IMG/VR virus record: IMGVR_UViG_3300037246_000694
Location: 1-22,005 of that record
Source of the DNA: a virus
Direction: 5' to 3' (one strand)
Length of the DNA stretch: 22,005 bases
The first letter of the stretch is position 1. Each line of letters starts with the position of its first letter. The position numbers and the translations under genes are program-made. The notes beneath the pieces are model-generated. The model was not told the DNA's origin. It saw only the letters and a list, made by a program, of their open reading frames with translations, and did no database searches. Shown piece after piece: positions 10,013 to 22,005 of this stretch.

Positions 10013-11317
10013 TTAAACTACGTAGCTCGCATCGGGCTGTTTGAACTCTCCGACGCGCTCTGGACGGAAGCCGAAGCACAGAGTCGCCAGCGCCGAGGCG
10101 CCATGAGACGCCCAGTTGTGAAGCGGCTTGTCTCGGAAGATCGTCTCGCCGCCAGGACCGCGCTCCCCTTCAATCGCTTGCTTCGTGTACTCTCGGAGCG
10201 CCTGCACCCCTCGCTTGCACTTCGTCTCGTGAATCCACATTTGCCTGAGCATCAACCGCACCGTGGCATGTTGATCCGATATTGCCACCTTCGGATTGAC
10301 AATCGTGCGTACTCCCAGAGACCGCATCTGTTCCAGAACCGTGCGGCCCGACTCAAGGCTTGTCGCGAGAGCATCGTGAGGCAGGTAGGCGTCCCCGTAG
10401 GCGTAGGGCTTTTCACGCATCATTTTGACGTAATGATCGATCGGCTCGCCAGCAGCCTCGTAATAGTCAATCAGCCGAATCTCGCGCGCCACGATCTGAG
10501 CGAACCAGATTGCCGTCGAATCGTAATGTCCAAGATCCCAGCCCGTAATCACTTCCTTGTCCGGGATCCAGTTCACCAGATCGCTGATCCGTGACGGCTC
10601 CTGCTCCACCATCCACCGGAGCTGTTCGGCGTAGTAGGCGCCCACGAGAGCCGCCTCGAACGAGCAGAAATACTCCTGCTCGAATATCTCCCTGGGCATT
10701 CGCTCTTTCTCTTCCGCAAGCGCTTCCGCAGAGATCGCGCCGGTATCGTCCACGGTCAGCTTCTCGGCGAACCAAGTGTCGGGATGCTCCGTCGCGTACT
10801 TGAAGATGTCATAGCCGTGGTTTCTGCCACGAGGCGTATAGACAAAGATCGCCCAACCGCCATTCTCGGCGAGCATGGGCGAGATGAGTTCCCAAGCAGC
10901 AGGGTTCTGGAGCGCGTACTCGGACACGATCACGCCAACAGGGTTGGCACCCATCAGGCGGTCGATGTGATCGGTGCCAACGACCTGAAACTTCGACCCC
11001 CCGTGGAGCCACAGGGTCATGTCATCGTCGCGTTTGCGGTACCAAGTCGGCTCAGGGAAGGCGTCGAGGAAAGGGCGACCGCCCTTGTCCATGCCCTCCC
11101 AGATCACCTTGCGGCCCTGGGAGTAGGTCGGGAAGAGGTGCCAGTAGAGGCCCGTGCGGCGGAAGGCTTGGGGGGCGCAGAAGTTGAGCGCGGTGAGATC
11201 CTTGCCCGCGCGACGGTGCCAGACGCAGACGGCTCGCTTACAGCCGCCCTCCAGCGCAGCCCAGAGGTTCTGCTGGTAGGACCGTGGGTCCCACTTGTAG
11301 GGAAGTTCGATCTGCAA
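10013..11317 (-). CDS. Terminase large subunit
   Basis: 434 residues. It powers DNA packaging and cuts concatemers. The ATPase domain has a Walker A-type loop CVWHRRAGKD (residues 31-40), a Walker B-like VGVIVSE (127-133) with the catalytic Glu, and a coupling motif TPRGRNH (161-167). The nuclease domain begins at GWDLGHYDSTAIW with Asp 261, followed by YLPHDA (311-316). The usual third acidic site near the C-terminus, often H-D-x-x-S-H-x-A-D-A, reads HNWASHGASAL here. The start is TTG 11317 without a clear ribosome site; a small hairpin lies just upstream. Confidence 0.9.
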   Translation of the reverse strand: MQIELPYKWDPRSYQQNLWAALEGGCKRAVCVWHRRAGKDLTALNFCAPQAFRRTGLYWHLFPTYSQGRKVIWEGMDKGGRPFLDAFPEPTWYRKRDDDMTLWLHGGSKFQVVGTDHIDRLMGANPVGVIVSEYALQNPAAWELISPMLAENGGWAIFVYTPRGRNHGYDIFKYATEHPDTWFAEKLTVDDTGAISAEALAEEKERMPREIFEQEYFCSFEAALVGAYYAEQLRWMVEQEPSRISDLVNWIPDKEVITGWDLGHYDSTAIWFAQIVAREIRLIDYYEAAGEPIDHYVKMMREKPYAYGDAYLPHDALATSLESGRTVLEQMRSLGVRTIVNPKVAISDQHATVRLMLRQMWIHETKCKRGVQALREYTKQAIEGERGPGGETIFRDKPLHNWASHGASALATLCFGFRPERVGEFKQPDASYVV

Positions 11318-17210: not shown

Positions 17211-17484
17211 GAGCGTGTGAGGACGGGTCCTAACTAGCGCTACAAGCCGGGCGCGTGGGTCCCACGAAAGGGGGGTAGGGGGGGGTCTCACGCCCTGCCG
17301 AGGGGGACCCTAGCCCCTCTAGAGCTCCTCAGAGGCCCTAGAGCCCTCTCAGGTGGTCGCAAACACGCCTTTCCGTGCATCGTGACGTGCTGAGGCGCAA
17401 CGTGCTCCCCTACAGATACCTGCCATCCACCCTCTCAAGCTAGCCTAGTCTCCCTCTCCTCTCCCCTAAGCTAGTCTTTCGCCC
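17211..17484. other. Gene-free stretch before the regulator
   Basis: 274 bases without a supported gene. It holds two G-runs (G6 at 17270-17275 and G8 at 17278-17285), a CTCTAGAGC half-palindrome at 17317-17325 related to those at 18060 and 18111, and two AAGCTAG repeats (near 17437 and 17467) just before ATG 17485. The next gene has no ribosome site, so a start of transcription close to its ATG is possible. Confidence 0.5.
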
Positions 17485-17772
17485 ATGCCTACAGGCGGAC
17501 CTAAGGTCAGCAGTGGTCGCCCTGCCTATCCCCCTGAGATACGCCGCACCCATCCTGTCCGTACCATGTTCACGCAGGGGGAGAGGGCAGACATCCGAGC
17601 GATAGCGGCAGGTTGGGACGTGCCTGCCGCTACTGCGGTGTACGCCATTGTGGCGACCTTCTTGAGCGAGACGCGGGGGATGAGTTCAGACCTATGCCGA
17701 ACGGAGAAGGGTTTACAGATAGTGGCGAGTGCCAAGCTTCTCGCGTCTCAGCATCCCGCCGCACGGACCTGA
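17485..17772 (+). CDS. Small putative DNA-binding protein, possibly leaderless
   Basis: 95 residues. After a Gly/Pro-rich N-terminus it reads PVRTMFTQGERADIRAIAAG, then WDVPAATAVYAIVATFLSE. The strand followed by two helices ('V-R-x-x-F-x-x-x-E-x-A-x-I-R-A-I-A') is reminiscent of ribbon-helix-helix regulators, but I am not sure. No Shine-Dalgarno sequence precedes the ATG. Its stop lies 5 bases before the likely start of the helix-turn-helix gene, which overlaps it in another frame if that gene starts earlier, so the two probably form a regulatory pair. Confidence 0.5.
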   Translation: MPTGGPKVSSGRPAYPPEIRRTHPVRTMFTQGERADIRAIAAGWDVPAATAVYAIVATFLSETRGMSSDLCRTEKGLQIVASAKLLASQHPAART

Positions 17773-17777
17773 GCCCA

Positions 17778-18047
17778 TTGGCTCGTCTGTTGGGTGCGGG
17801 TGGCATCTCACGGATGGAGCTTGGCGCCCGTTCCGGCGTCCATCTCCACGCCATCTCCAAGCTGGTGAACGACTCCGAAGCGGTGTTCCGTCTACCTCTA
17901 TCTACCATTGTTCGGGTGGCGGTAGCGATGGGGTGCAGCGTTGTCGAGCTCCTCCCTTCCTTGGGCAAGCGTCCGCGGACGGGGCTTCTGTGGGAGCGTG
18001 GGGTGTTCCGGCGTAAGCGAGCTGAACCACTGGACGAGCGGCTCTAA
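17778..18047 (+). CDS. Xre-type helix-turn-helix regulator
   Basis: From TTG 17778 the product has 89 residues, starting MARLLGAGGISRMELGARSG. The helix-turn-helix is SRMELGARSGVHLHAISKLV (11-30), followed by LPLSTIVRVAVAMGCSVVEL, the usual fourth and fifth helices of Cro/CI-type domains. The C-terminal 25 residues are basic. The frame is open back to 17613, with ATG 17694 as an alternative start; the domain boundary favours 17778. Without a separate cleavage domain it resembles a Cro or small plasmid-type repressor. Nearby palindromes could be its operators. Confidence 0.65.
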   Translation: MARLLGAGGISRMELGARSGVHLHAISKLVNDSEAVFRLPLSTIVRVAVAMGCSVVELLPSLGKRPRTGLLWERGVFRRKRAEPLDERL

Positions 18048-18059
18048 GTAGCCTGGAAA

Positions 18060-18069
18060 GCTCTAGAGC
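18060..18069. promoter_or_regulatory. GCTCTAGAGC palindrome, copy 1
   Basis: A perfect 10-bp palindrome 13 bases after the helix-turn-helix gene. The second copy is 51 bases further on, about five helical turns. It is a candidate operator. Confidence 0.4.
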
Positions 18070-18110
18070 AAAGTTTGTTCGGCCACGAATCCATGAGCGA
18101 GCTCGAGATG

Positions 18111-18120
18111 GCTCTAGAGC
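18111..18120. promoter_or_regulatory. GCTCTAGAGC palindrome, copy 2
   Basis: Identical to copy 1, in the 266-base gap before the small-gene cluster; that gap has no supported gene. Confidence 0.4.
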
Positions 18121-18186
18121 CCAAATTCTCCCGATCAGGGATTCCGTGAGGGATGGACTCAAGTTTGTCGCGGGGGTGTCGATGGG

Positions 18187-18198
18187 CTACAGGTAGAC
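18187..18198. promoter_or_regulatory. CTACAGGTAGAC palindrome before the small-gene cluster
   Basis: Same core as the perfect palindrome at 15726-15739. A weak promoter-like TTGTCG lies 17 bases before TACAGG (18165-18193), so the site would overlap the -10 region. Confidence 0.4.
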
Positions 18199-18245
18199 AG
18201 GGTGGCAGTCGTCACGGCATGACGGGAGAGCCACAGACACCCACG

Positions 18246-18261
18246 AGGCGCGGAGGCGCCT
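18246..18261 (+). other. Hairpin upstream of start-associated element 1
   Basis: AGGCGC, loop GGAG, GCGCCT: a perfect 6-bp stem 22 bases before element 1. Confidence 0.35.
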
Positions 18262-18283
18262 GCCACCCTTCTACTCCATCCAA

Positions 18284-18313
18284 CAGACGGGCGAGAGCCC
18301 AAGGGGGTAACCG
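18284..18313 (+). promoter_or_regulatory. Start-associated RNA element 1 (loop GAGA)
   Basis: CAGACGGGC-GAGA-GCCCAA, then AGGGGG and ATG 18314. The stem is GGGC/GCCC with a GNRA loop. First of eight copies placed directly before start codons. Confidence 0.75.
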
Positions 18314-18658
18314 ATGATTGCAACGATTCAGATAGTGGTTGAGATGGGCTCCGAGGCGCATAACAAGCTCATGCCCACTATTCGCCTGCTCAACAAGATG
18401 GCAGAGGAGCGCACGGACGGTTTCGACCAATGGCAGTGGGAGCAGCATCCCACGATGGACGAGATGGTCAAGGCGAACCTCGCACGGATGGTTGAGGTGT
18501 GCGCGCACTGTGGCGCGACGCTTCCCATCTCACCTGCTCCGGAGCATACCTGCGAAGGCAGCGCCCCCGCGGAGTGTGGACACGACTTCGCCCGCTACGG
18601 CTCCAAGGGCATCATTGAGCAGTGCGTGTTGTGCTCAGAGTTGAGAGACATCAAATAG
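18314..18658 (+). CDS. Small protein with putative zinc-binding cysteines
   Basis: 114 residues starting right after start-associated element 1. The first half is helical (MGSEAHNKLMPTIRLLNKMA). The second half has CAHC (63-66), Cys80, ECGHDF with Cys88, and CVLC (104-107), consistent with one or two zinc sites. This kind of 'CxxC ... ECGHDF ... CxxC' arrangement is seen in small phage zinc-ribbon proteins. No catalytic residues are evident. It is the first gene of the small-protein cluster. Confidence 0.6.
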   Translation: MIATIQIVVEMGSEAHNKLMPTIRLLNKMAEERTDGFDQWQWEQHPTMDEMVKANLARMVEVCAHCGATLPISPAPEHTCEGSAPAECGHDFARYGSKGIIEQCVLCSELRDIK

Positions 18659-18663
18659 AACAG

Positions 18664-18693
18664 CAGACGGGCGCAAGCCCAATGGGAGAACGT
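18664..18693 (+). promoter_or_regulatory. Start-associated RNA element 2 (loop GCAA)
   Basis: CAGACGGGC-GCAA-GCCCAA, then GGGAG and ATG 18694. It decides the start of the next gene, since the frame is open further upstream. Confidence 0.75.
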
Positions 18694-19122
18694 ATGAAGA
18701 CCTACCACAATCACCTCGCAAGCAACATTCCGAACAATCGCCTGACGCGATGGCTCGTCCATCGTTTCACTGCTCACATGGCGAAGAGTGATTCAGCGTG
18801 GACGCTCCGGATGCGGTGGCGCAAGCCGAAGGTCGGCAGGTACGGCAGCCACGGACAGGTTGAGCGCGACAACGCTCGCACCTTCTCTCTCTACCTCGTC
18901 AAGCGCACCTGCGCTGTCAAGGCAGAAGAGGAGTACCGCATCTTGGCAACGCATCGCGCTGAGCAGTTCCGTGCGGAGTCTGCTCGGCGCGCGGAGTGGC
19001 GAGCGCAGGGAGAAGCTAGACGGGCGCACGACTCCGAGCAGAGGCTACGCGAAGAGTTCTCGAACGATGAGATGGCGCGACGCATCCGAACGGCTACCGG
19101 CTTCGATACGGAGGTTCACTAG
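18694..19122 (+). CDS. Basic helical protein of unknown function
   Basis: 142 residues, strongly basic. The N-terminal region (NNRLTRWLVHRFTAHMAKSD) and a middle rich in Arg and Lys (TLRMRWRKPKVGRYGSHG) precede a long charged helix (YRILATHRAEQFRAESARRA). The composition fits nucleic-acid binding or a coiled-coil adaptor, but no domain is recognised. The start is fixed by element 2; an open frame back to 18622 has no such signal. Confidence 0.6.
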   Translation: MKTYHNHLASNIPNNRLTRWLVHRFTAHMAKSDSAWTLRMRWRKPKVGRYGSHGQVERDNARTFSLYLVKRTCAVKAEEEYRILATHRAEQFRAESARRAEWRAQGEARRAHDSEQRLREEFSNDEMARRIRTATGFDTEVH

Positions 19123-19359
19123 ATGAAGATGGGACTTTCCTACCCCAACGACCCCAAGCCTGTACTGAAGGAAGGGGAGCTCTACATCGCCGACAACGGG
19201 CGCCTGATCTGCTTGCAGTGTGCAGGCGCTTCGGCGAAGTACACAGGGCACGACATCAGCGGACAGAAGGTCTTGCGGGTCACGCCCAATCATCGCGCGC
19301 ATTGGCGGGCGGACATGGGTGGAGAGATGCACTGCGAGGGCGGGTGCAGCTTGCACTAG
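19123..19359 (+). CDS. Small Cys-containing protein
   Basis: 78 residues, beginning directly after the stop of the preceding gene (TAGATG), with GGAGG ten bases upstream but no start-associated element. It carries LICLQCAGASAKYTG with a CxxC pair and MHCEGGCSLH at the end, a possible zinc site. The lack of its own element suggests it is read by coupling to the gene before it. No family is recognised. Confidence 0.6.
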   Translation: MKMGLSYPNDPKPVLKEGELYIADNGRLICLQCAGASAKYTGHDISGQKVLRVTPNHRAHWRADMGGEMHCEGGCSLH

Positions 19360-19365
19360 ATGGCT

Positions 19366-19389
19366 AGGGGGAGTCTCCGGACTCCCCTT
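19366..19389 (+). terminator. UCCG-capped intercistronic hairpin 1
   Basis: GGGGAGTC, loop TCCG, GACTCCCC, plus outer A-T and G-T pairs. No U-run follows. It lies between the Cys-containing gene and element 3. Confidence 0.45.
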
Positions 19390-19411
19390 AGAGATGTAGA
19401 GCAAGACTCAA

Positions 19412-19446
19412 CAGACGGGCGCGAAGCCCAATAGGAGAGCGAACGA
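19412..19446 (+). promoter_or_regulatory. Start-associated RNA element 3 (loop GCGAA)
   Basis: CAGACGGGC-GCGAA-GCCCAA, then AGGAGAG and ATG 19447. Confidence 0.75.
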
Positions 19447-19806
19447 ATGGCACACTTCTACATGAACGCGCAGGGCAATCGAGGCGAGGTGACTCGCATG
19501 GGCACCAAGAACTCCGGCATGTTCGCGCATGTCAGAGGATGGAGCTCCGGTATCCGCGTCGAAGCCTACCACGACGAAGAGGCAGGAGAGGACTGCTTCC
19601 GTGTCTACTCGACGGGCGGGAGCAACGACCACAACGAGTACCTGCTCGGAGTTCTCATCGACGGGCGGTGGGTCTCGGAAGAGGAGCGCGAGCGTCTCTG
19701 CAAGGTCACGCCGCAGGTTCCCGCGCTCGATGGCATGACTCCGATGGGATTCACGCAGGCATCCAAACGATTCGCCGCAAGAGCAAAGGCATTCGACAAG
19801 GACTAG
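19447..19806 (+). CDS. Small acidic protein of unknown function
   Basis: 119 residues, beginning MAHFYMNAQGNRGEVTRMG, then FAHVRGWSSGIRVEAYHDEE and CFRVYSTGGSNDHNEYLLGV, an alternating strand pattern, and a helical end (TQASKRFAARAKAFDKD). This resembles the compact beta-rich small proteins often encoded in phage early regions. The function is not known to me. Start-associated element 3 fixes the start; a UCCG-capped hairpin follows the stop. Confidence 0.6.
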   Translation: MAHFYMNAQGNRGEVTRMGTKNSGMFAHVRGWSSGIRVEAYHDEEAGEDCFRVYSTGGSNDHNEYLLGVLIDGRWVSEEERERLCKVTPQVPALDGMTPMGFTQASKRFAARAKAFDKD

Positions 19807-19817
19807 ACCCTCTCGTT

Positions 19818-19847
19818 CTATCGTCATCGCTCCGGCGGTGGCGATAG
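19818..19847 (+). terminator. UCCG-capped intercistronic hairpin 2
   Basis: A 13-bp stem with two wobble pairs, CTATCG...CGATAG on the outside, closing a C-TCCG-G loop. No U-run. It lies between the 119-residue gene and element 4. Confidence 0.45.
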
Positions 19848-19862
19848 CGCCAGAAGGTTCAA

Positions 19863-19891
19863 CAGACGGGCGCGAAGCCCAAGGGGGACAC
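19863..19891 (+). promoter_or_regulatory. Start-associated RNA element 4 (loop GCGAA)
   Basis: CAGACGGGC-GCGAA-GCCCAA, then GGGGGA and ATG 19892. The first 23 bases equal those of element 3. Confidence 0.75.
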
Positions 19892-20029
19892 ATGAGCAAG
19901 TACTTGGCCACAGTGGCGAAGGTCTTGGAGATGGCTCGGAAGGTGGACAAGAACGCAAGCTACGTCTGCACTCCTGACCCTGACATCGAAGACCGGCAGG
20001 GGCGCATCCCGCCCCGGCGCGAGGTGTAA
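19892..20029 (+). CDS. 45-residue peptide of unknown function
   Basis: MSKYLATVAKVLEMARKVDK forms an amphipathic helix, followed by NASYVCTPDPDIEDRQGRIP and a basic end. Element 4 and the Shine-Dalgarno sequence identify the start within a longer open frame. The gene ends 2 bases before the next start. Too short to place in a family. Confidence 0.55.
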   Translation: MSKYLATVAKVLEMARKVDKNASYVCTPDPDIEDRQGRIPPRREV

Positions 20030-20031
20030 GT

Positions 20032-20238
20032 ATGACGGAAGCAACCCGACGCAAGCGAAACGCCGAACGATTCGCCGCGACCCTACACGCGAACGTCGGC
20101 CCGATTGGTTGGATTATCGTCTCGGGCGGTTCGTGGTACGGCGCATACGGCGACCGCGAAGCCGCCCGAGCGCGCATCGGAAAACGCGACGGCTACGGCG
20201 ATAAGATTCGCGGCGTAGTGGTAGAGGTTAAGCCGTGA
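20032..20238 (+). CDS. Small basic protein of unknown function
   Basis: 68 residues, ATG 20032 with GAGGTG five to six bases upstream inside the end of the previous gene. MTEATRRKRNAERFAATLHA is a basic helix; GWIIVSGGSWYGAYGDREAA and KIRGVVVEVKP suggest a small alpha/beta fold. It has no element of its own, so it is likely coupled to the 45-residue peptide. The stop overlaps the next GTG start. Confidence 0.55.
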   Translation: MTEATRRKRNAERFAATLHANVGPIGWIIVSGGSWYGAYGDREAARARIGKRDGYGDKIRGVVVEVKP

Positions 20239-20396
20239 AGCCTTCCGACGATTGGAACGATTGCCCTGTGCCCTACGTGCGGCCTCGTCCAGTTGTTCCA
20301 GACGGGCTCCGCGATCCTGGCGCGCGCGTGCGTGAGTTCGCCCGGATGGAGCTCGAGCAAGCTCGAGTTCAAGAAGTCAGACGGGCGCGTCGATAA
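20235..20396 (+). CDS. 53-residue basic peptide, GTG start
   Basis: GTG 20235 overlaps the preceding stop as GTGA. The product starts MKPSDDWNDCPVPYVRPRPV (GTG read as Met) and ends in an Arg/Glu-rich helix (REFARMELEQARVQEVRRAR). The last codons run through a partial start-associated element (CAGACGGGCGCG at 20378-20389). The frame overlap with its neighbour is the main support; coding is plausible but not certain. Confidence 0.45.
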   Translation: MKPSDDWNDCPVPYVRPRPVVPDGLRDPGARVREFARMELEQARVQEVRRARR

Positions 20397-20404
20397 GAAG
20401 CCAC

Positions 20405-20431
20405 CAGACGGGCACAGCCCAAGGGAGAACA
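20405..20431 (+). promoter_or_regulatory. Start-associated RNA element 5 (loop ACA)
   Basis: CAGACGGGC-ACA-GCCCAA, then GGGAGAAC and ATG 20432. The only copy with a three-base loop. Confidence 0.7.
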
Positions 20432-20623
20432 ATGAAGTTCGCGATCAAGATCGATGTCACAGCGTCATTCGAGGTTGAGCAAGCACTTTCTGGGATTCTG
20501 CGTCAGTTGGCCGACTGCGTAGAGGAAGGTCACAGCATACCGTTCGAGATTGGGATGACGGGCGACGAGGTGGGTCCCGATGACCTCTCAGGCTACTCGG
20601 CTGCGATCGTCAGGGAGTACTAG
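20432..20623 (+). CDS. Small acidic protein of unknown function
   Basis: 63 residues: MKFAIKIDVTASFEVEQALS, then ILRQLADCVEEGHSIPFEIG and an acidic loop ending SGYSAAIVREY. The pattern strand-helix-strand suggests a tiny alpha/beta fold. The start is fixed by element 5. Its stop codon TAG forms the first three bases of element 6. No family is recognised. Confidence 0.6.
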   Translation: MKFAIKIDVTASFEVEQALSGILRQLADCVEEGHSIPFEIGMTGDEVGPDDLSGYSAAIVREY

Positions 20624-20650
20624 ACGGGCGCGAGCCCAAAGGAGACGAAA
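20621..20650 (+). promoter_or_regulatory. Start-associated RNA element 6 (loop GCGA)
   Basis: TAGACGGGC-GCGA-GCCCAA, then AGGAGACGAAA and GTG 20651. The TAG at its left edge is also the stop codon of the previous gene. Confidence 0.75.
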
Positions 20651-20833
20651 GTGTACGAAGATTTCGAGCTAGGACAAATCTGCGAGATCGCCAAGGCCTA
20701 CCGTCAGGCCCTCCGTTACTACAAGTCAGCAGGAGCGGAGCGGAGTGCGGAGAAGATGCGAAACCAGCTTGGGATCGTGCAACGCGATGAGCTCAAGTTG
20801 GTGAGTGGATCTGGATACAAGTTTCGGAGGTAG
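20651..20833 (+). CDS. Small helical protein, GTG start
   Basis: 60 residues from GTG 20651, directly after element 6 and AGGAG. The product MYEDFELGQICEIAKAYRQA continues with RYYKSAGAERSAEKMRNQLG, mostly helix, and ends in KLVSGSGYKFRR. The balance of charge and the helix pair recall small helical-hairpin regulators, but there is no firm match. The element argues strongly that this GTG is the true start. Confidence 0.55.
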   Translation: MYEDFELGQICEIAKAYRQALRYYKSAGAERSAEKMRNQLGIVQRDELKLVSGSGYKFRR

Positions 20834-20896
20834 TACAGGTCAAGACGAGCTGCGATCGTCCCGCACGTCGCATCCTCGAAAGCCACCCGCGGGAAT

Positions 20897-20927
20897 CAGA
20901 CGGGCGGGAAGCCCAAAGGGGGTTCAG
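20897..20927 (+). promoter_or_regulatory. Start-associated RNA element 7 (loop GGGAA)
   Basis: CAGACGGGC-GGGAA-GCCCAA, then AGGGGG and ATG 20928. Confidence 0.75.
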
Positions 20928-21116
20928 ATGATGCTAGACCACGAGATCGGCTTCATTCGCAAGCCGCGCTGCTTCTACTGCGCGGGCGATGCCGTGGTTG
21001 GGAACGGGACAGGCGCGGGCGATGCGAACCACGACCACCTTGGACCGGCGCTCTGCAACAGTCACCGGCATTCTGTTTCGCAGCTCCTGGAAAAGCTACG
21101 GCTTCTCCGCAAGTAG
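20928..21116 (+). CDS. Small putative zinc-binding protein
   Basis: 62 residues from ATG 20928, chosen for element 7 rather than the open frame back to 20805. It carries RKPRCFYCAGDAVVGNG (CxxC), then NHDHLGPALCNSHRH with a second Cys and several His. This resembles a zinc ribbon or a stripped HNH-like finger; no catalytic HNH core is complete. It ends LLEKLRLLRK. A role in nucleic-acid binding is possible. Confidence 0.58.
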   Translation: MMLDHEIGFIRKPRCFYCAGDAVVGNGTGAGDANHDHLGPALCNSHRHSVSQLLEKLRLLRK

Positions 21117-21118
21117 CG

Positions 21119-21164
21119 GAGACGGGCGCGGCCTTCGGATCAAGGGGACCGAGGCCGCGCCCAA
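21119..21164 (+). other. Extended form of the start-associated hairpin
   Basis: It keeps the flanks GACGGGC and GCCCAA but replaces the small loop by a long stem: GGGCGCGGCC pairs with GGCCGCGCCC (10 bp), then a one-base bulge, four more pairs and a loop with AAGGGG. No start codon follows directly; element 8 begins 13 bases later. Confidence 0.55.
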
Positions 21165-21177
21165 CCACTCCCTCAAC

Positions 21178-21197
21178 CAGACGGGCGGAATCCCAAG
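21178..21197 (+). promoter_or_regulatory. Start-associated RNA element 8 (loop GGAA, diverged stem)
   Basis: CAGACGGGC-GGAA-TCCCAAG directly before ATG 21198. The fourth stem pair is lost and no separate Shine-Dalgarno sequence follows. Confidence 0.65.
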
Positions 21198-21746
21198 ATG
21201 AAAAGACCTCCGAAGCCTCTGACACGTAACGAACTGGACGCGATGCTCAAGTATGCCAAGAGCTCGCGCGACCGTGCGCTCATCATCCTCTTGTGGAGAG
21301 GCGGGCTCCGTTCAGCTGAGGTTCGAGGCCTCGATGTCACGGACCTACAGAGATTGGAAGATGGCGGGCTCCGGATCCACATTCGCAGCGGCAAGGGTGG
21401 GGTGGCTCGCTTCGTCGCCTTGGATCCGAGATCCGCTGTATTCGTTCGACGCGCTTACGACCGAAGCATGTGGTCGGGACCCGTCATCAGGACCCAGACG
21501 GGCGCGCGCCTCTGCACCTCATCGATGCGGAAGATCATCGCCCGGATCGGCTTGGGCTGCGGCATCCCGCGCGCTCACCCACACGGGCTCCGACACTCCT
21601 GCGCCCGCGACATGCACGAAGAGGGGTTCAGCGTGCGAGAGATCCAAGTCGCATTCGGACACAAGAGCCTCCAAACCACCGCGATCTACTTGCAGTCCAT
21701 CGGCTGCCACGAGGTAGTGGAGAAGATGGCAGAAAGGAAATTCTGA
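21198..21746 (+). CDS. Single-domain tyrosine recombinase (integrase)
   Basis: 182 residues, about half the normal integrase length. It holds a complete catalytic domain: Arg38 in GLRSAEV, Lys66 in SGKGGVAR, His129 and Arg132 in HPHGLRHS, His155 in FGHKS and the nucleophile Tyr164 in TTAIYLQ. The N-terminal arm-binding and core-binding domains are absent; the ATG at 21198 is supported by element 8, so truncation at assembly is unlikely. It would cut and join DNA at an attachment site or resolve multimers. Without the core-binding domain it may need a partner protein. The neighbour downstream starts right after its stop. Confidence 0.82.
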   Translation: MKRPPKPLTRNELDAMLKYAKSSRDRALIILLWRGGLRSAEVRGLDVTDLQRLEDGGLRIHIRSGKGGVARFVALDPRSAVFVRRAYDRSMWSGPVIRTQTGARLCTSSMRKIIARIGLGCGIPRAHPHGLRHSCARDMHEEGFSVREIQVAFGHKSLQTTAIYLQSIGCHEVVEKMAERKF

Positions 21747-22005
21747 ATGGATCTAGAGAAGTCGATCAGAGTCACGGAAGGCGGGCGCGATGTGAAGATT
21801 CGACTCTTCGCGAAGCACCGAGCTGCCGCCATCAAGACCTACCTCTTCTCCGAGGACGAGCCCCCGCTGGGCTACATCCTGCTCTTCGCTCAGATCCGGC
21901 GGCGCCAGAAGGGCGGGAAGGCTCGCTTTCTAGACCTACACTATCGGCATACGGGCAACGAGGAGCACCCGCCGATGCAAGACTTGAAGGATTGGGTAGA
22001 CACGC
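21747..22005 (+). CDS. Partial protein of unknown function
   Basis: 86 codons are visible, running off the right edge. ATG 21747 follows the recombinase stop with no gap (TGAATG), so the two are probably coupled; AGGAAA lies about nine bases upstream. The product starts MDLEKSIRVTEGGRDVKIRL and includes LLFAQIRRRQKGGKARFLDL, basic and mixed strand/helix. No family is recognised; a recombinase partner would be an obvious but unproven guess. Confidence 0.5.
   Translation, partial: MDLEKSIRVTEGGRDVKIRLFAKHRAAAIKTYLFSEDEPPLGYILLFAQIRRRQKGGKARFLDLHYRHTGNEEHPPMQDLKDWVDT

Follow-up and report, generated by a model that had tools for sequence, protein, structure and literature searches.

The window analysed here is a 22-kb viral-contig record (IMG/VR record IMGVR_UViG_3300037246_000694, 22,005 nucleotides) that carries eight copies of a short predicted hairpin element, set one after another before the starts of small genes (Table 1). 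Each copy has the form (C/T)AGACGGGC-loop-(G/T)CCCAA and lies directly 5' of a Shine-Dalgarno sequence (SD) or of the start codon itself, a combination of which no copy is expected by chance. An earlier note, made from the sequence alone, had described eight such elements, and all of them were found, each followed by an open reading frame (ORF), at 18314, 18694, 19447, 19892, 20432, 20651, 20928 and 21198. All copies are on the plus strand within one 2.9-kb stretch and are restricted to the plus-strand module, while the structural genes are on the minus strand. In shuffled sequences the exact pattern CAGACGGGC-N3..6-GCCC is expected 0.01 times and occurs six times, and the relaxed pattern ACGGGC-N3..8-GCCC is expected 0.39 times and occurs seven times.

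The form that had been described for all eight, CAGACGGGC-loop-GCCCAA, is seen in most copies but not in copy 6, which begins with TAGAC, or in copy 8, which has the arm TCCC. Because of this 3' arm the stem of element 8 contains only three G-C pairs, and its predicted folding energy is -3.2 kcal/mol with a z-score of 0. Across the window copies the unpaired flanks AGAC and AA show no change at any of 48 positions, whereas the loops differ by about 10 edits in 32 positions (p = 4e-5). The genes of the module without an element, at 19123, 20032, 20235 and 21747, all begin no more than 2 nt from the upstream stop codon or overlap it.

Table 1. Elements, genes and other predicted hairpins of the plus-strand module
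Feature	Position	Strand	Details
Element 1, CAGAC-GGGC-GAGA-GCCC-AA	18284..18302	+	SD AGGGGG, ATG 18314; hairpin GGGC/GCCC 18289-18300
Element 2, CAGAC-GGGC-GCAA-GCCC-AA	18664..18682	+	SD GGGAG, ATG 18694
Element 3, CAGAC-GGGC-GCGAA-GCCC-AA	19412..19431	+	SD AGGAG, ATG 19447
Element 4, CAGAC-GGGC-GCGAA-GCCC-AA	19863..19882	+	SD GGGGG, ATG 19892
Element 5, CAGAC-GGGC-ACA-GCCC-AA	20405..20422	+	triloop; SD GGGAG, ATG 20432
Element 6, TAGAC-GGGC-GCGA-GCCC-AA	20621..20639	+	SD AAGGAG, GTG 20651; TAG doubles as the stop of the preceding ORF
Element 7, CAGAC-GGGC-GGGAA-GCCC-AA	20897..20916	+	SD GGGGG, ATG 20928
Element 8, CAGAC-GGGC-GGAA-TCCC-AA	21178..21196	+	degenerate; ATG 21198 (integrase gene), no clear SD
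Hairpin GGGGCG-CATCC-CGCCCC	19999..20015	+	unrelated to the elements; just 5' of the SD of coupled gene 20032
Long hairpin, foot AGAC-GGGC...GCCC-AA	21124..21162	+	between gene 20928 and element 8
Small protein gene before the helix-turn-helix gene	17485..17772	+	shared with L129/L254, L128/L255 and L262
Helix-turn-helix (Cro/C1-type) regulator gene	17613..18047	+	upstream of the module; PF13443, E 2e-4; common to L255, L254 and L262
Small-gene module bearing the elements	18314..21746	+	11 ORFs including the integrase gene
Short tyrosine integrase gene	21198..21746	+	43% identity to the L262 integrase

Start hairpins in related phages

Relatives were found by searches with the portal, the terminase and the helix-turn-helix (HTH) regulator. 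The group consists of one record with L128, L175 and L255, one with L129, L174 and L254, a set with structural genes only (L127/L176), and the near-identical records L177/L178/L181, the 45-kb one of which, G001, also holds L262-L264. Among 50,697 phage records there is no nucleotide relative of the window, Rfam covariance models gave no match to it at gathering score, and protein searches with the single window proteins 19447 and 21198 gave no close viral relatives. The HTH gene, present in the window, L255, L254 and L262, served as the synteny anchor, and its neighbour gene is common to the window, L255 and L262 (three of the four phages, by tblastn). Apart from an integrase in the window and L262, the gene content of the modules downstream of the HTH gene is almost unrelated.

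The first gene after the HTH gene carries a hairpin in all four phages, and most of these genes are unrelated. Five SD-abutting hairpins are present in the L255 module (GGTC-ATTA-GACC, GGGC-AACA-GCCC, GGGC-GAGA-GCCC and two copies of GGGC-GAAA-GCCC). On the L254 contig, which stops just past the HTH gene, that first gene is preceded by GGGGC-GAC-GCCCC. The five hairpins of G001 are GGGTC-GAC-GACCC, found twice, GGGTC-TGCG-GACCC, GGGCG-AGAT-CGCCC and GGGCG-CAC-CGCCC, most of them flanked alike, as ACC[stem]ACGGAG. The orthologous integrase genes of the window and L262 both have a start hairpin, and the stems differ, with GGGCG-CAC-CGCCC at the same place in L262.

Hairpins were counted in the right-hand modules of the four phages (window, L255, L254 and L262), with starts chosen by ORF and SD alone and a hairpin defined as a stem of 4 bp or more that ends 0-4 nt before the SD. 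By this measure the hairpin is associated with independent starts: it is found at 17 of 20 of them, seven times the chance rate, whereas dinucleotide-shuffled upstream sequences averaged 2.4, with no more than 7 in any of 500 runs. Among translationally coupled starts the count is 4/11 (Fisher p = 0.013 against the independent starts). Over 725 SD-preceded genes on 120 viral contigs, picked up through a chance pattern match, 38 hairpins were found versus 35.3 expected, and under the same criterion the annotated phages gave 1/22 independent starts in Anaya of cluster K (1.3 expected), 0/47 in 7-11 and 3/18 in PaP4. Since the background contigs, Anaya and 7-11 are at chance, the habit belongs to this phage group, a little-known set of temperate podovirus-like phages; a general phage habit of start-abutting hairpins is ruled out by the 120-contig background. 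In a more distant phage (terminase 48%), CCCC-TCCG-GGGG and CCCC-TTCG-GGGG lie before an SD and ATG on the minus strand of L266, at 3891 and 2554 (L183 record).

The arms of the stems were compared explicitly; MAFFT and RNAalifold misaligned them owing to differences in loop length. Among 19 elements the outer two pairs are invariant, while pair 3 is G-C or T-A, pair 4 is C-G, T-A or G-C, and pair 5 is C-G or G-C. In the relatives the stems are GGGGC/GCCCC, GGTC/GACC, GGGTC/GACCC and GGGCG/CGCCC, and both of the last two occur within G001, in similar conserved flanks. Permutation of the arms among the six 5-bp stems gave p = 0.017. Fully Watson-Crick stems are seen in 18 of the 19 elements, a count that is inflated, as the stems were listed partly because they fold. 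Because most of them were found by their pairing ability, the case rests on the 17/20 start count and on G001. In combination, the elements recur at the same location, are predicted to pair, and covary in their stems from phage to phage.

Compensated stems were thereby found in related phages, where the earlier note had looked to their absence as one test of its proposal, and these sequence comparisons support selection on the RNA structure of the elements. A covariance-model search, also suggested there, placed the window and L255 elements above all background matches (best 20.5 bits), except for two weak window copies (19410 at 18.8 and 21176 at 14.0), but recognised the G001 type poorly because its stems differ. 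Three of the eight window loops are GNRNA and three GNRA, so that six closed loops fit the proposed class, as do three of five in L255; none fits in L254 (GAC) or G001 (GAC, AGAT, TGCG and CAC). A universal GNRA loop class is not supported, being absent from these two relatives, and the loops are not the part that is conserved across the group.

Beyond these relatives, viral contigs scanned with both broad and strict patterns for exact or near-exact copies gave scattered single matches only, and the 39 matches in GTDB genomes are all single and apparently due to chance. A scan for ACGGGC-GNRA-GCCCA-SD revealed further start-associated cases in L269 (three), L275, L278, L282/L283 and L285, contigs outside the terminase and HTH searches; as the pattern demanded GNRA and an SD, these cases show recurrence of the layout and not selection on the loop. 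On the minus strand of L269, at 4344, 3807 and 2831, GGGC-GCAA-GCCC-AAAGGAGTCAAG is found three times before ATG. A search for the host sampled two phyla, those to which an Acidobacteriaceae and a Planctomycetales genome belong, and found a single distant prophage terminase that lacks the elements.

Genes and repeats around the elements

The window comes from an SU10-like podovirus, of which it is a fragment, and contains an integrase gene. On the minus strand are genes for an SU10-type portal, a major capsid protein and an adaptor, and homologues and conservation point to the terminase large subunit at 10013-11317. The integrases of the window (21198-21746) and L262 (7918-8475) are 182-185 amino acids long, scarcely beyond the catalytic domain. 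The N-terminal half of the protein encoded by ORF 19447-19806 matches a mycobacteriophage small protein of unknown function (phrog_5927; 45% identity), and ORF 20032-20238 encodes a 68-residue protein with an Arg-rich N-terminus, MTEATRRKRNAERFAATLHAN, and weak similarity to the SPOR domain.

The 5' half of the element, AGACGGGC, occurs 14 times in the window versus 1.5 expected. Copies without the 3' arm are found in coding sequence at 19018, 20300, 20379 and 21496, and a further copy forms part of the foot of the long hairpin, at 21120. The copy at 20379, 27 nt upstream of element 5, resembles a decayed element with an insertion. In L255 the same half-element is present as AGACGGGCTCGG, three times in about 48 nt (10632-10680), just upstream of the start hairpin at 10695.

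The stretch 21112-21197, which spans the long hairpin, has a predicted folding energy of -39.9 kcal/mol and a z-score of -3.2, and the long hairpin is possibly an expanded element or a 3'-end hairpin. A strong second hairpin directly upstream of the start hairpin is seen in the window at 21124-21162, in L262 upstream of 13593, and on the minus strand of L269 at 4361-4344 and 3825-3807; such second hairpins may be 3'-end structures of the preceding gene. At L255 11703-11729, GCCCGTC-TCAA-GACGGGC overlaps the start hairpin GGGC-GAAA-GCCC, so that either of two stems, but not both at once, could form at this start.

Between the HTH gene and the module lie perfect palindromes, GCTCTAGAGC, at 18060-18069 and 18110-18121, one of them extended to GGCTCTAGAGCC, which are candidate repressor operators. 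An imperfect inverted repeat, AGGGTGGCAGTCG...CGCCTGCCACCCT, is found at 18199-18269, just upstream of element 1.

How the element may act

On balance, the element is probably a cis-acting translation-initiation hairpin that is homogenised within each genome. On a polycistronic early or lysogeny transcript, a GC-clamped hairpin of 4-5 bp immediately 5' of the SD would mark those cistrons that must load ribosomes on their own instead of relying on coupling to the gene before them. It would most likely act passively, as a defined fold, closed on itself, that bounds the initiation region on its upstream side and keeps upstream RNA from pairing with the SD, and in addition it may shield a processed 5' end. 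Duplication or gene conversion of the ribosome-site cassette would maintain the likeness among the copies in one genome. Position and evolution give the direct support for the role in initiation; an effect on translation or mRNA stability, the passive mode and the homogenisation are what we infer. As its stem persists in relatives through matched changes on both sides, the hairpin resembles a part reused for starting translation more than a chance repeat. No terminator (a stem followed by a T run) was found in 17400-22005, and no sigma-70-like promoters were found at the elements.

Besides the inflated pairing count, several observations weigh against a passive initiation hairpin. In folding predictions the accessibility of the SD gains little (0.47 versus 0.40 unpaired with the 5' arm blocked, p = 0.03), and because this effect is weak, insulation is something that we infer. 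The window hairpins before 20651 and 20928 are predicted to lose to other folds in a 130-nt context. Furthermore, the invariant flanks show a tighter constraint on sequence than a purely passive hairpin would require; AGAC and AA would be either recognised by some factor or kept alike by copying.

Recognition would bring in a trans-acting factor, whether a phage or host protein or a small RNA, that reads the hairpin together with the AGAC/AA flanks and switches the translation or stability of the whole gene set, in the way that RegA- or coat-protein-type regulators act on single genes. We regard such a reader as a real, if clearly lesser, possibility because the flanks are conserved and the consensus is genome-specific (AGACGGGC in the window, CAACCGGG...CCCACGGAG in G001), as expected if site and reader co-evolve. 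The flanks are unpaired and invariant in the window while the loops vary, and one element per independent cistron would make an operon-wide regulon. On the other hand, the loops, which are the usual protein contacts, differ between phages, and recent duplication also explains the invariant flanks, though not the variability of the loops. The single phage RNA-binding protein that the earlier note had imagined for all copies found no candidate: no small RNA-binding gene is common to the modules, which share only the HTH regulator and, in three of the four by tblastn, its neighbour. A more specific form of this idea, an operon-wide translational switch in which one host or phage factor acts at every independent gene of the lysogeny module through lineage-matched sites, is slightly more doubtful still; if true, it would turn a whole gene set up or down at translation and not at transcription.

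Copying, in turn, might be the whole explanation, with a good ribosome-site cassette spread by duplication or recombination, its hairpin an accident of GC-rich sequence, and the elements also providing homology for the swapping of small genes. The window copies are nearly identical, the genes behind them are unrelated, and half-elements are found inside genes and three times in tandem at L255 10632-10667, all as this explanation would have it. Nonetheless, we consider it unlikely: the relatives stay paired with different stems, hairpins far exceed chance at independent starts, and the orthologous integrase gene keeps a hairpin with a changed stem. Simple spread is already weakened by these compensated stems.

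We give little credence to either of the two remaining explanations. Nut-like antitermination signals along the operon, with boxB-type hairpins bound by an N-like Arg-rich peptide, had been suggested in view of the GNRA/GNRNA loops, which are present in the window and L255. The Arg-rich N-terminus of ORF 20032 recalls the lambda N peptides. Antitermination is nevertheless unlikely because the module has no boxA-like sequence, those with one mismatch all being outside it, and there are no terminators to read through. In addition, the hairpins are at the SD rather than promoter-proximal, the loops of the sister phages are not boxB-like, there is no shared RNA-binding gene, and the sister phages lack a homologue of ORF 20032. 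As for DNA operator or stoperator sites for a phage repressor, one-orientation intergenic repeats in a temperate phage, beside an HTH regulator gene, are also the arrangement in cluster A mycobacteriophages, whose stoperators are set apart from start-associated sequences in PMC3203893. DNA operators are equally improbable because the spacing of the arms varies (loops of 3-5 nt), a variation compatible with an RNA hairpin but not with a dimer site on DNA, and because the stems change with pairing kept. Every copy is moreover fixed to an SD or start and not to a promoter, and the separate palindromes at 18060 and 18111 look more operator-like.

Comparison with known systems

Cluster A stoperators are fixed-length DNA repressor sites that occur as oriented short repeats between the genes of temperate phages. 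The window resembles them in having many oriented short intergenic repeats in a temperate phage, but differs in the variable arm spacing and compensated stems of its elements. Lambda boxB has a short stem capped by a GNRA-like pentaloop, to which the GCGAA and GGGAA loops correspond in part; unlike it, the window elements are at ribosome sites, without boxA or an N homologue, and their loops are not conserved in relatives.

In position and genome half, the resemblance that the earlier note drew to the start-associated sequences (SAS) of cluster K mycobacteriophages is real, and the sequence differs as it had claimed (PMC3203893). These sequences and the extended start-associated sequences (ESAS) have been known since 2011, without a mechanism (Pope et al. 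2011, PMC3203893; PMC12699233). The SAS is a 13-bp sequence, GGGATAGGAGCCC, that includes the SD, while ESAS repeats are 17 bp in length and further upstream; the inverted-repeat consensus differs by subcluster, and the genes behind are often unrelated (PMC3203893; PMC12699233). The window shares with this system short repeats just before starts, in one orientation, in the non-structural half and mostly at uncoupled genes, as well as a genome-specific consensus and genes behind that are often unrelated. However, the SD is inside the SAS, whereas the window hairpin lies 5' of it. The SAS consensus has no match in the window with up to two mismatches, and the cluster K phage Anaya, unlike the window, has SD-abutting hairpins at the chance rate.

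The nearest structural precedent is the T4-type CUUCGG hairpin. With reference to Tuerk et al. 1988 and Gorski et al. 1985, one paper describes CUUCGG intercistronic hairpins in T4 and other phages, GTTCGG before the sigma gene of the phiEco32-like phage 7-11, and a hairpin in the T4 gene 32 leader that stabilises mRNA (PMC8948821). Both types place a stable short hairpin, predicted in the case of the window, in intergenic RNA before a gene. The T4 loop is UUCG, whereas the window loops are GAGA, GCAA, GCGAA, GCGA, GGGAA and ACA, and the UNCG loop before starts (CCCC-UNCG-GGGG) is found only in the distant phage L183/L266. Furthermore, hairpins of the T4 type do not recur with fixed flanks before each independent start as a homogenised family.

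The window and its relatives provide a second, independent system with the SAS layout, in which RNA pairing and not primary sequence is kept between relatives. The question of whether start-associated repeats act as RNA in translation initiation is now directly testable, with coupled and uncoupled genes of the same modules as a built-in internal control, and the element is a candidate for a natural insulated ribosome-site cassette. The hairpin family is analogous to both precedents yet distinct from them, resembling the SAS in its genome logic and the T4 hairpins in its structure.

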